Positions 20,820 through 25,325 of a DNA stretch of 64,000 bases are shown here, in pieces. The first letter of the stretch is position 1; each line of letters starts with the position of its first letter. The stretch covers positions 3,704,470 to 3,768,469 of the forward strand of contig CP054187.1 in the NCBI GenBank assembly GCA_015200345.1, given 5' to 3'. The notes beneath the pieces are model-generated. The model had not been told where the DNA came from and searched no databases. It saw only the letters and a list, made by a program, of their open reading frames with translations. The position numbers were made by a program, and so were the translations under genes. Source of the DNA: Planctomycetia bacterium (GTDB lineage: Bacteria; Planctomycetota; Phycisphaerae; UBA1845; UTPLA1).

Positions 20820-23135
20820 TCAGGGCGCCAGCAGCGCACGGAGTTGTTCGGCGTCGCTGGTTGGCGCCTTGCAAGTGAAGTTCCGACAGACAAAAGCCGC
20901 TGCGCCGGTCGGCGGCGGCTGCTTGCCGGCAAGCAAGGGGATGCGTTTCGCCAAATCGGCTGCATCGGGAGCATCCACGTAGATTCGCGCGAAAACGACG
21001 TTGGGCACGTACGTCCGCCACGCTGTTTCGATCAATTTGTCGAGGTTCGCGGCGTCTGCCGAGGCGGCGACGAAGGCCAACTCGCGCGGGCGACGGTGAT
21101 AAAAATCGATTGCGGAGAGCATCCGTTCGGAGCGAAACGGCGTTTCGTCCAGATGTTTGCTGAACGCGCGAATCATCCGCTCGGCTTCTTCGTGGAGGTC
21201 TTTGCGATCCAGCAGCACCGCCAGGCGCAGCAGATTCATGAGTTGCACCGAGTTGCCGGACGGAGTCGCGCCGTCGTTGTTGTCCTTCGCTCGAACGATC
21301 AGTTTCTCGCCATCAACGGGCGTGTAGTAGTACGCACCGTGGTCCGCATCGCGGAAGTACCGCGCCAGATCGTCGTTCAGCTTTTCCGCGTGATCCAGCC
21401 ATCTCGTATCAAAGGTGGTCTCATACAGGTTCAGCATCGCTTCGATCAAACAGGCGTGATCGTCGAGGTAGGCATGCGTATGCGCCTTGCCGGCGCGGTA
21501 CGTTCGCAGCAGGCGGCCTTCGCGGACCATCCGGGTCATCACAAAGGTCGCCGCCTTCTCCGCCGAGACGCGATAGCGGTCATCACCAAGAATCCGAGCC
21601 CCGCGGGCCATGCTCGCGATCATCATGCCGTTCCAGCCCGACAGCACCTTGTCATCCAGATGCGGCTTGACGCGCTTCTCTCGCGCGGCGAAGAGCGTCG
21701 CACGCGCCGTGTTCAGGCGTTTTTCCGCTTCGCCGATCTCCAGACCGTGCAGCTTCGCGACGGTCTCCAGGGGACGCTGGATGTTCAGAATGTTCACGCC
21801 TTCCCAGTTGCCGTCCTTCGTCACGTCGTAGTAATCGCAGAACAGGGCGGCGTCGCTTCCGAGCAGGGCCTTTACTTCGTCCAGGGTCCAAACGTAGAAC
21901 CGGCCCTCGTGCCCCTCGCTGTCGGCGTCGCGCGTGGAGTAGTACCCGCCTTCGGGGCTTTGCAGGTCGGCGATGACGTAATCGAGCGTCTCGCGCGCGA
22001 CGCGCCCATACAGCGGCTTGCCGGTCAATTGAAACGCTTTGAGATAAATGTCGCTTACCAGCGCCTGATCGTACAGCATCTTCTCAAAATGCGGCACGAG
22101 CCAGTCCACGTCGGTGCTGTAGCGTGCGAACCCGCCACCGAGTTGATCGTAGATTCCGCCGTGCGCCATCTTCTCAAGCGTCAACTCAACGGCGGCGAGC
22201 ATGCGCGCGTCCGGCTCCGCCCGGCTGCCGTCGCGTGACTCCTGCGAGGCGTGATAAACACGCAGCATGAGGTCCATCGCCATCGCCGGCGGGAACTTGT
22301 TCGTGCCGCCGCCGCTCATGCCGCCCTTGACCGGGTCAAAGGCCTTTGTCAGAAAGACCGCGGATCGCTGGACGACTTCCCAGGGGACCAGTTCCTGTCC
22401 TTGCGCGACAGTTGTCAACTGCTGCACCGCCTGCGTCAACTGGTCCGCCTGATCCAATGCCTTTTCACGCTGGTTCTTCCAGATGTCGGCGAGGAACTCC
22501 AGCACACGCTTGAAGCCGGGCCGGCCGTAGCGATCATCGGGCGGGAAATACGTTCCGGCGTAGAAGGGCTTGAGATCGGGCGTCAGCCAGACCGACATGG
22601 GCCAGCCGCCCGAGCGGGTCAGCGCCTGCGTGGCCATCATGTAGATGTCGTCAAGGTCGGGGCGTTCCTCGCGGTCGACTTTGATCGGCACGAAATGCGC
22701 GTTGAGGAACGCGGCGATCTCCTCGTTCTCGAAACTCTCGCGCTCCATGACATGGCACCAATGGCACGCGGAATAACCGATGGACAGGAAGATGGGCTTG
22801 TCTTCGCGTCGCGCCTTGTCCAGCGCTTCGGTTCCCCATTCGTACCAATCGACGGGGTTGTATGCGTGTTGCAGCAGGTACGGGCTGGTGGCGCGGGCGA
22901 GGCGATTGGGCTTGCGCGAAGAGGTCGAGGTCGTCATGCGGGCGTCCTGTTGAGGGGGTGAGATCGTGCCGGTATTGCTCACAGCCGGCGCGCGGTTGAG
23001 TCCTTGCCGGGCGATTTCATCGGATTCGTAGGCGGCATTGCAACCGACGACCAGCAGCACGGTCAACCTGGCAACCCGGAGTATTGCAACATGCCGGTTG
23101 CGCGGCAGCGTGATGGTTGATTGCGTATGAAACAT
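20820..23135 (-). CDS. DUF255 thioredoxin-like protein (YyaL family), probable lipoprotein
   Basis: A protein of 771 residues from ATG 23135. A hydrophobic stretch ends in the lipobox-like LLVVGC about 30 residues in, suggesting an N-terminal lipid anchor; a start at 22937 ([11 protein letters not shown]) would give a cytoplasmic form. The thioredoxin-like DUF255 domain begins with [25 protein letters not shown] and has the redox motif [12 protein letters not shown]. An alpha/alpha-barrel resembling glycosidase or N-acylglucosamine epimerase folds follows, with [31 protein letters not shown] and [15 protein letters not shown]. The family is conserved from bacteria to human SPATA20, and its substrate is unknown. 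A candidate structured RNA lies directly upstream. Confidence 0.9.
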
Positions 23136-23194
23136 TCCGGGAGTATAGGGCGAATGCCCCAAAAGAGCCGATTGCGCAAACCATCGAACCAGGG

Positions 23195-23425
23195 GCACAA
23201 ACGCAAGCGTCACGCTTGCGTAGTTGAGCCAAATAAGGTGGCCCAGTCGCCCAAACGGTGAGTTCAGACGACCGGGCCAGAGGGTGGAGTGGGATCTGTT
23301 AAAGCCGGACTGCTTACGCGTCCGGGTTTGTTCTGGTTCGTTCGGGTCTCAACCTATTAGACCCGATTGGTTCACCAAGGTTAGATCGCTTTTCCGCGAT
23401 CCTTCTGTTCTGCTTGGTGAAACGT
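23195..23425 (-). ncRNA. Candidate structured RNA between sppA and the DUF255 gene
   Basis: No gene lies in this 230-bp part of the sppA/DUF255 gap, but it holds consecutive inverted repeats. These are TTCACCAAG/CTTGGTGAA (23371-23379, 23413-23421) enclosing GATCGC/GCGATC (23384-23389, 23396-23401); CGGGTCT/AGACCCG (23343-23349, 23359-23365); CCGGAC/GTCCGG (23305-23310, 23320-23325); and TGGCCC/GGGCCA with GTCG/CGAC inside (23239-23249, 23269-23279). On the minus strand a 9-bp hairpin ACGCAAGCG/CGCTTGCGT (23201-23221) comes last and could be a terminator, with a weak T run after it. I do not recognise a known RNA family. It could equally be the 3' UTR of sppA or the leader of the DUF255 gene. 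Confidence 0.35.
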
Positions 23426-23441: not shown

Positions 23442-25325
23442 TCACTTCGACAGCGTCGTGAAACTCGGTCCAATGAGTAATACTCCGTCCTGCGACAGAA
23501 GTTCCATGTGGATCAGAAAATCTTCCACGGCCCGGGCCTTGATGGGGTCAAGGCGACGGATTGCTTCCAGACCGGCCGCCATCGCGGGCAACCGTGCGTA
23601 ACGCGAGAGCGCCTGAACGCCCGTTCGAACGGCCGCGCCAGTGTGGATGAACTCATGGTCCTTGTCCTTCCCGCCGCCAAACGCTTCCGCGAAAATGTCG
23701 GCGAGGTTCTTGGGCTTCGGGAAGACTTTCAATTCGTAATCGCTTTCGATATCCGCCTCGCTCGCGGTGTAGCGAATCGCATCGGCGAAACCGCCGAGCC
23801 GATCGACGAGGCCGATCTCAATTGCCTGTTCGCCTGTATAGACTCGTCCGCCCGCAAGGCTCTCCAGGTCACCCTTGATGCGGTCGCCGCGGCCCTGCGT
23901 GACGCGATCTTTGAACTCGCCGTAAATGCGATTCATGAAGCCGCTCATCACCTTGTGTTCCTCCTCGGTGAATTTGCGATTGGTGTTCATGATGTCGGCG
24001 TGCTTGCCGCGCTTGTATTCGTGACCGGTGACGCCGACCCAGTCCCACAGGCCCTTGGTCACCAATTTGCCGCCGACGACGCCGATGGAACCGGTGATGG
24101 TCGAAGGCTGCGCAAAAATCGTGTCCGCCTGCGTGGCGACGTAATACCCGCCGCTGCCGGCCACGTTGCCCATTGAGCAAATGAACGGCCGACCGCTCTT
24201 CTTAAATCGCATCGTGGCTTCGGCGATGATTTCGCTGGCAATGGCCGATCCGCCGGGCGAGTCGACGCGCAGGATGAGGGCCTTCACGTTTTTATCCGCC
24301 GCGGCCTCGGCGATGGCTTTGCGTATCGTGTCGGAGCCGGCGTTGGAGGGCGGGCCTCCGAACATGCCCGGTTCGCTTTCGCCCTGCGTGATCGGTCCTT
24401 CGACGTACACGACGGCAATGGCGGGCTTCTGGGATTCTTCCTTGGGTTTCATGACCTGGGCAAAGAAGCCCCAGATGGCGAACGGGTTCTCAAGATCAAG
24501 CTCCGGACCCTTCTTGCGGCCGTAGTCGAAGGCGACTTTCGCATTCTTGCCGTATTTCTTGCGAACGGCCTTGACGAAGTCCTCGCGGAACATCAAGTCA
24601 TCGACAAGGCCGGCTTCCTTCGCTTCGGCGGGCGACAGGATGGCTTTGTCGATCAATTGATCGAGTTCGTCGATTTCGATCTTGCGGCTCTTGCAGATCT
24701 CGCTCTTGAGGGTGGCGAAGATCGAATCGATCAATCGATTGGTCTGCTCTTCCGCCGGTTTGCTCGGTCCTTCGAGGTAGAACGGCTCGCCAGCGGACTT
24801 GTAGTCACCGCAGTGGATGATGTCGGCTTGCACACCGATCTTGTCCATCATGCGCTTGAAATAAAGCCCTTCCGAGTACATGCCGGCCAGCTCGACCACG
24901 CCGCGCGGCATCAGCACCAGCTTGCTGGCTGCCGACGCCAGCATCAGCCTGCCCATGCCGAGTGTCTCGGTGAAAACCCAAACGTCCTTGTCGGCGGCCC
25001 GCAGCGCTTCAATCTGCGTACGCAGTTCCTGAATTTGGGCGATCCCCAGTGCCGCGTTCTCCATGTCGAGGATGACGGCTTTCACCTTGTCGTCCGTTCG
25101 GGCCTTTTTGAACTTCGCCAACAAATCGAACATGTTGGTCGGCGCCTTGCCGCCAAACAGTTCGCCCAGTCCGGCGAGTTGTTCGGGTTGCTCGGAGATC
25201 TGCCCGGCGACCTTAAAATAGGCAACGATGCTCTTGCCATCCTGCGCGCGGGCGGTCTGCGTGAACGCCGGCCCAAGCAGCGATGCGGACAAGATCAGTG
25301 CGAGATTTCGAAACGTGCTTCGCAT
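23442..25325 (-). CDS. sppA: Signal peptide peptidase SppA, 67-kDa (long) type
   Basis: A membrane-associated serine protease that degrades released signal peptides. The product is 627 residues from ATG 25325 (MRSTFRNLALILSASLLG), with GGAG 9 nt upstream; the signal or anchor segment ends near ARAQ. As in the E. coli long form it has two peptidase S49 repeats. The N-terminal repeat carries the presumed catalytic lysine in CGDYKSAGEPF. The C-terminal repeat carries the nucleophile serine in NVAGSGGYYVATQADTIFA, followed by STITGSIGVVGGK. Its C-terminal about 60 residues (LKVFPKPKNLADIF and onward) complete a normal length. The gene is monocistronic or followed by the structured intergenic region. 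Confidence 0.93.
   Translation of the reverse strand: MRSTFRNLALILSASLLGPAFTQTARAQDGKSIVAYFKVAGQISEQPEQLAGLGELFGGKAPTNMFDLLAKFKKARTDDKVKAVILDMENAALGIAQIQELRTQIEALRAADKDVWVFTETLGMGRLMLASAASKLVLMPRGVVELAGMYSEGLYFKRMMDKIGVQADIIHCGDYKSAGEPFYLEGPSKPAEEQTNRLIDSIFATLKSEICKSRKIEIDELDQLIDKAILSPAEAKEAGLVDDLMFREDFVKAVRKKYGKNAKVAFDYGRKKGPELDLENPFAIWGFFAQVMKPKEESQKPAIAVVYVEGPITQGESEPGMFGGPPSNAGSDTIRKAIAEAAADKNVKALILRVDSPGGSAIASEIIAEATMRFKKSGRPFICSMGNVAGSGGYYVATQADTIFAQPSTITGSIGVVGGKLVTKGLWDWVGVTGHEYKRGKHADIMNTNRKFTEEEHKVMSGFMNRIYGEFKDRVTQGRGDRIKGDLESLAGGRVYTGEQAIEIGLVDRLGGFADAIRYTASEADIESDYELKVFPKPKNLADIFAEAFGGGKDKDHEFIHTGAAVRTGVQALSRYARLPAMAAGLEAIRRLDPIKARAVEDFLIHMELLSQDGVLLIGPSFTTLSK

Follow-up and report, generated by a model that had tools for sequence, protein, structure and literature searches.

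What is the densely self-complementary stretch between sppA and the DUF255 gene of this planctomycete, and to which of the two genes does it belong? The question was addressed in a window of 64,000 nucleotides (G000:C1:3704470-3768469), located inside a 3.88-Mb single-contig genome. The relatives of the window, retrieved by DNA pattern, are Planctomycetota/Phycisphaerae MAGs. Positions given below are those of the window unless a contig is named.

Layout and folding of the locus

On the minus strand, sppA (23442-25325; Peptidase_S49, PF01343, E 2.2e-66) is followed by the flagged region and then by the DUF255 gene (20820-23135; Thioredox_DsbH, PF03190, E 1.9e-79). The sppA reading frame is open to 25427, and its probable start, judged by the N-terminus and a Shine-Dalgarno sequence, is ATG 25325; the DUF255 gene probably starts at ATG 23135, where the translation has a lipoprotein-like N-terminus. 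As read from the sequence, the flagged region is the predicted 3' UTR of sppA and ends in a terminator-like hairpin. Beyond the element, immediately before the DUF255 ATG, is a promoter-like TATACT stretch. Just ahead of that stretch, at 23153-23192 (minus strand; L002-L005), a small dispersed palindrome, CGATTGCTTGCGCAATCGGCTCTTTG, is present in degenerate form; about ten good copies of it were seen in 1.2 Mb of the window genome, mostly outside called genes.

The first-pass annotation had described at least four inverted repeats in the region, one of them nested, and all were located by an inverted-repeat search. In the direction of sppA transcription, hairpin 1 (9 bp; arms 23371-23379/23413-23421), which is not kept in the sister genome G001, encloses the nested 6-bp hairpin (23384-23401); both were also found in the fold. 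Hairpin 2 (arms 23342-23349/23359-23366) is conserved in the genus only, being shared with G001. Hairpin 3 (arms 23301-23310/23320-23329), directly upstream of an unpaired linker, is likewise shared with G001 only, where a C-G pair is replaced in compensatory fashion by G-C (GGAC/GTCC versus GGAG/CTCC); most relatives have a different hairpin at this position. The 12-mer CCCACUCCACCC then occupies 23293-23282 (G000:C1:3727751-3727762), and 2 nt past it starts hairpin P1 (18 bp counting G-U; arms 23239-23256/23262-23279), followed by the tail CCUUAUUUGG (23229-23238). Last comes a perfect hairpin of 9-10 bp (arms 23201-23210/23212-23221). This last hairpin had been proposed as the terminator, an assignment that did not hold, as it has no U tract and is missing from G001; the likely terminator is P1 (23279-23239).

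The minus strand of the region (23441-23195) folds to -99.9 kcal/mol, below all 200 dinucleotide shuffles (-73.5 +/- 4.8 kcal/mol; z -5.53), and the plus strand has a z of -2.8 against its shuffles. For the genome background, 1.2 Mb of the window genome was sampled for intergenic regions 180-420 nt long, and of the 90 taken 1.1% (about 1 in 90) reach z <= -5.5. With the repeats found, this z-score and a background of about 1%, the observation of an unusually dense structured region is sound. It had been assigned to no recognised family, and this too was borne out: Rfam 15, searched at the gathering cut-off with the window and eight relative loci, gave no match, and at E <= 10 the element region gave chance-level matches only.

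Conservation of the element downstream of sppA

The family considered here comprises 17 genomes of uncultured planctomycetes of Phycisphaerae type, with the window genome as G000. A DNA search of the window genome and 60 relatives returned single matches in 13 genomes, all within this family and all downstream of sppA. A covariance model gave one strong match per genome in 13/17 family genomes and none outside the family among 298 genomes of the class. SppA-like matches, weak ones counted, occur in 17/17 family genomes; the 12-mer is absent from the sppA 3' UTR of G003, G010 and G012, and no close sppA orthologue was found in G004. A search of the genome-contig collection for close relatives of SppA confirmed none.

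The aligned core consists of an invariant 12-mer, CCCACTCCACCC, which had been overlooked in the first-pass annotation, followed within 1-2 nt by the long hairpin P1. All 12 positions are invariant in the 13 genomes while both flanks vary. P1 covaries: 11 of its 17 consensus pairs are changed on both sides and 94% of cells pair, a result equalled by 0/500 shuffles, and sliding the partner arm abolishes the signal. The earlier suggestion of a structured RNA is thus supported, with its place in the sppA 3' UTR. The hairpin array is conserved in part, with P1 and the preceding 12-mer kept family-wide and hairpins 2 and 3 kept only with G001.

In the 13 genomes the 12-mer begins 51-246 nt past the sppA stop codon, with a mean predicted unpaired probability of 0.87 versus 0.42 for its flanks. 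In most copies the predicted fold places it between an upstream hairpin and the terminator. The sppA copy has the make-up of an intrinsic terminator, with an 18-bp stem and a following tail at the 3' end of a gene; the tail is weak in the window, and the U-containing tails of the 13 sppA copies are often longer. The position between stop codon and terminator, found in all 13 genomes, is that of a 3' UTR-derived sRNA, and an invariant, predicted unpaired stretch of 12 nt exceeds the 8-10 conserved single-stranded nucleotides looked for in a seed.

The region had also been proposed as a leader controlling the DUF255 gene, and DUF255 is indeed the gene that follows in both the window and G001. 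Synteny contradicts this proposal: elsewhere in the family DUF255 is mostly separated from the element by other genes, and no DUF255 match turned up in the part of G002 that was retrieved. Since DUF255 is adjacent in the genus of the window but not in most of the family, the element belongs to sppA. The promoter-like TATACT also speaks against a leader or attenuator, a role that we regard as scarcely credible.

Recurrence of the 12-mer at other genes

Weak covariance-model matches contained the same 12-mer beside hairpins of different sequence. In the 17 family genomes a pattern search found the exact 12-mer 66 times and its reversed form once; this control probably understates the background because 14 of the 66 copies lie in unrelated ORFs, where they may be due to chance. 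When one mismatch was allowed, 352 copies were added, versus 346 for the control, and hence no excess. In the rest of the class, one repeat in G069 aside, the exact word and its control occur at about equal frequency. By neighbourhood, the 66 copies fall into three recurrent contexts, all sense to the host gene: sppA (13), a PDZ-domain gene (11) and an M56/BlaR1-like peptidase gene (10). Another 17 or so copies, intergenic and lineage-specific, were found, several of them before strong hairpins with U tracts. Scattered copies follow Secretin_N, PAP2 and LolA/RseB-like genes, and a few lie between divergent genes (L142, L151). In the clear cases 0-3 nt separate the 12-mer from the following hairpin, whose sequence is free, and the hairpins of the sppA, PDZ and M56 loci are unrelated in sequence.

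The PDZ-domain gene, last in an operon that also encodes an ECF sigma factor and a small protein resembling an anti-sigma factor, is present in 17/17 family genomes. Its 3' UTR carries the exact 12-mer in 11 genomes and a one-mismatch form, changed at position 1 or 12, in four (G000, G001, G007 and G008), so that the copy of the window's own genome is of the latter kind; the 3' UTRs of G004 and G010 were examined and have none. The mean predicted unpaired probability of the 12-mer is 0.72 here, versus about 0.4 for the flanks. In some genomes the adjacent hairpin is also the terminator; several other PDZ copies have a separate terminator further downstream, and the hairpin beside the 12-mer is therefore not always a terminator.

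In the M56/BlaR1-like peptidase gene, which adjoins a BlaI-like repressor gene, the 12-mer lies inside the reading frame and is read as P-T-P-P. The exact word is found in 10 of 14 orthologues, that of G001 has GAGACUCCACCC with the hairpin, and the word is absent from the orthologues examined in G005, G009 and G010. The hairpin covaries in this context as well (14/18 pairs with two-sided changes; 0/500 shuffles as high), and the 12-mer is again predicted to be unpaired (mean 0.82 versus about 0.4 for the flanks). There is no terminator, and the ORF continues past the copy. A copy with an M56-related hairpin was found in G004 (L168, motif at 2501-2512 on its minus strand), apparently non-coding, about 150-200 nt after an ORF that we take, from its translation, to be ECF-sigma-like and before a BNR-repeat gene. 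The covarying hairpin and this apparently non-coding relative mean that codon constraint alone cannot account for the M56 copy, and coding constraint as its sole cause was rejected.

Two other explanations were weighed against this distribution. One is that the element is an ordinary sppA 3' end, in which the hairpin terminates transcription and the C-rich stretch helps to release the transcript, for instance by loading Rho. Rho prefers C-rich, G-free RNA, the 12-mer is of this C-rich kind, and the U-containing tails of the 13 sppA copies fit a terminator; yet Rho needs no exact 12-mer, whereas here 12 positions are fixed without enrichment of one-mismatch copies, and the M56 copy sits within a coding sequence that continues. 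This explanation is considered unlikely. The other is that the word acts as DNA, for example as a site for a transcription factor or a nucleoid protein, as its exactness and the few copies between divergent genes would allow. The 12-mer is, however, always sense to its host in the three conserved contexts, where it stands beside covarying RNA hairpins, and its distance to the promoter is not fixed, which leaves a DNA site very improbable.

Search for pairing targets

Complements of the 12-mer (7-, 8- and 9-mers) were sought around 895 start codons, drawn from 31% of the window genome (1.2 Mb), and were not enriched there, with 15 7-mers against 19 expected. An exactly complementary RNA partner is not expected, since G012 has a single exact copy, at the PDZ site.

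Pairing of the 3' UTR with the Shine-Dalgarno sequence of the same gene was rejected as a general rule. The sppA starts of the window (25325) and of L020, L021, L024, L025 and L026 carry GTGGAG, GGTGGA or GGTGGAG, and in about half of the motif-bearing genomes the sppA start has 6-7 nt complementary to its own 3' UTR 12-mer. The same complementarity is found in roughly 10% of starts with a Shine-Dalgarno sequence, and the excess at sppA was noticed after the fact. At PDZ and M56 starts complementarity to the 12-mer is generally absent, or weak.

Proposed function

The 12-mer would be a recognition segment that works as RNA. This reading draws on the single strong covariance-model match per genome in 13/17 genomes, each downstream of sppA; on the 12/12 invariance, the covarying sppA and M56 hairpins and the 66 copies versus 1 without a one-mismatch excess; and on the sense orientation in three orthologous contexts, the predicted unpaired state and the membrane or stress-related hosts. 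The membrane-stress theme is suggested by the names of the host genes, namely S49, PDZ after ECF sigma, BlaR1/M56, Secretin_N, PAP2 and LolA/RseB-like. Most likely, the 12-mer is either the recognition segment of a 3'-end sRNA or the site of a putative trans-acting factor, in an envelope-stress regulon.

The tentatively preferred possibility, to which we give somewhat less than even weight, is that sppA and PDZ mRNAs yield stable 3'-end RNAs whose 12-mer pairs with other RNAs as part of a membrane-stress response. Decay or processing of these mRNAs would leave a stable RNA of roughly 100 nt, made up of the upstream hairpin, the unpaired CCCACUCCACCC and the terminator. Base-pairing of its 12-mer with other RNAs would then form a non-coding arm of the response, and the M56 copy might be a further source of the recognition segment, or a decoy. 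The 3' UTR anatomy and the resemblance to known 3'-end sRNAs favour this scheme, and to that extent the earlier proposal of a 3' UTR-derived sRNA stands. Its other side fared less well, in that complementary sites are not enriched at start codons; the M56 copy without a terminator and the separate PDZ terminators also speak against it.

A protein-binding site would account for the data behind the sRNA scheme as well. The 12-mer with its hairpin may instead be a cis site on sppA, PDZ and M56 mRNAs, recognised by a putative trans-acting factor, either an RNA-binding protein or an RNA, which controls how stable the mRNA is or how it is translated; the element would then be the target and not the regulator. 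The identical word in 3' UTRs and within a coding sequence, placed just before hairpins of free sequence, fits such a site, and the lack of enriched complements at the 895 starts suits a site better than a seed, although a perfectly complementary RNA as the factor is made unlikely by the G012 case. A cis site of this kind is possible but short of probable, and the two readings are nearly level. The corresponding broader proposal, held with slightly less confidence, is a family-specific regulon in which one putative trans-acting factor would read an exact unpaired 12-nt word docked on a hairpin of free sequence. This would couple SppA with an ECF-sigma/PDZ operon and with a sensor protease of the BlaR1 type, one of the sites being kept in coding sequence.

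The sRNA scheme can be compared with several known systems. According to a review of 3'-end sRNAs, sequence downstream of a stop codon that is conserved for no evident reason may mark a seed (PMC9438474). The sRNAs that mRNA processing releases from 3' UTRs (CpxQ from cpxP, SdhX, NarS), and MicL, which is transcribed from an internal promoter, resemble the sppA element in their position from stop codon to intrinsic terminator, in a short invariant unpaired segment by a stable hairpin and in stress-related parent mRNAs (PMC9438474). The present element differs in that one identical 12-mer recurs in several unrelated parent mRNAs, once within a coding sequence; it has no sequence relation to these RNAs and no Rfam match, comes from another phylum and is known from sequence alone. 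LhrC of Listeria comprises multicopy sRNAs with redundant CU-rich sites that are induced by envelope stress (PMC4132741), and the likeness is that a shared C-rich motif is present several times per genome. The LhrC copies are, however, related sRNA genes, in contrast to the 12-mer, which is carried by mRNAs and stands beside hairpins that show no relation from one locus to the next; for the 12-mer, pairing with start regions is not supported.

In the icaR mRNA of Staphylococcus aureus, a UCCCC motif in the 3' UTR pairs with the Shine-Dalgarno sequence of the same mRNA. The likeness lies in a C-rich 3' UTR motif able to pair with a GGAG-type ribosome site; the difference is that such start complementarity is confined to about half of the motif-bearing sppA genomes and is generally lacking in PDZ and M56.

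The ingredients of the arrangement are thus familiar, and one exact word apparently common to unrelated 3' UTRs and a coding sequence, each with its own hairpin, was not found described in the literature searched. In the open-access literature searched, the 12-mer string matched only four papers, all of them non-bacterial in subject judging by their titles. Little post-transcriptional regulation has been described so far in planctomycetes, and a survey of the PVC group lists 8 annotated sRNA families in total (PMC9029176). Comparative evidence alone has here led to an RNA word fixed at 12/12 positions, to two contexts with covarying hairpins and to a small set of genes for membrane proteolysis and stress that share the word, which makes a putative factor and regulon directly searchable. 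The copy kept in coding sequence would be a useful case of constraint on codons at the RNA level.

Other occurrences of the 12-mer

The 41 copies in G069, from another family of the order, were rejected as copies of the element because they form the arms of a dispersed repeat, GGGTGGGGTGG...CCCACTCCACCC (e.g. L192, L196, L210), to which the element is unrelated; some of the copies are in tandem, 21 bp apart. A match in Myxococcota (L225) was also rejected, with neither the hairpin nor sppA nearby. In G009 a second match of 17 nt, CCCACTCCACCCTTGGC (L065/L140; G009:C3:510503), has a short hairpin only and is antisense to neighbouring ORFs which, from reading their sequence, we take to be hemerythrin-like and CBS-domain-like. 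In G015 the complement GGGTGGAGTGGG of the motif at 2501-2512 of L189 falls, probably by chance, on the codons for the Walker A motif (KGGVGK) in a ParA-like gene.
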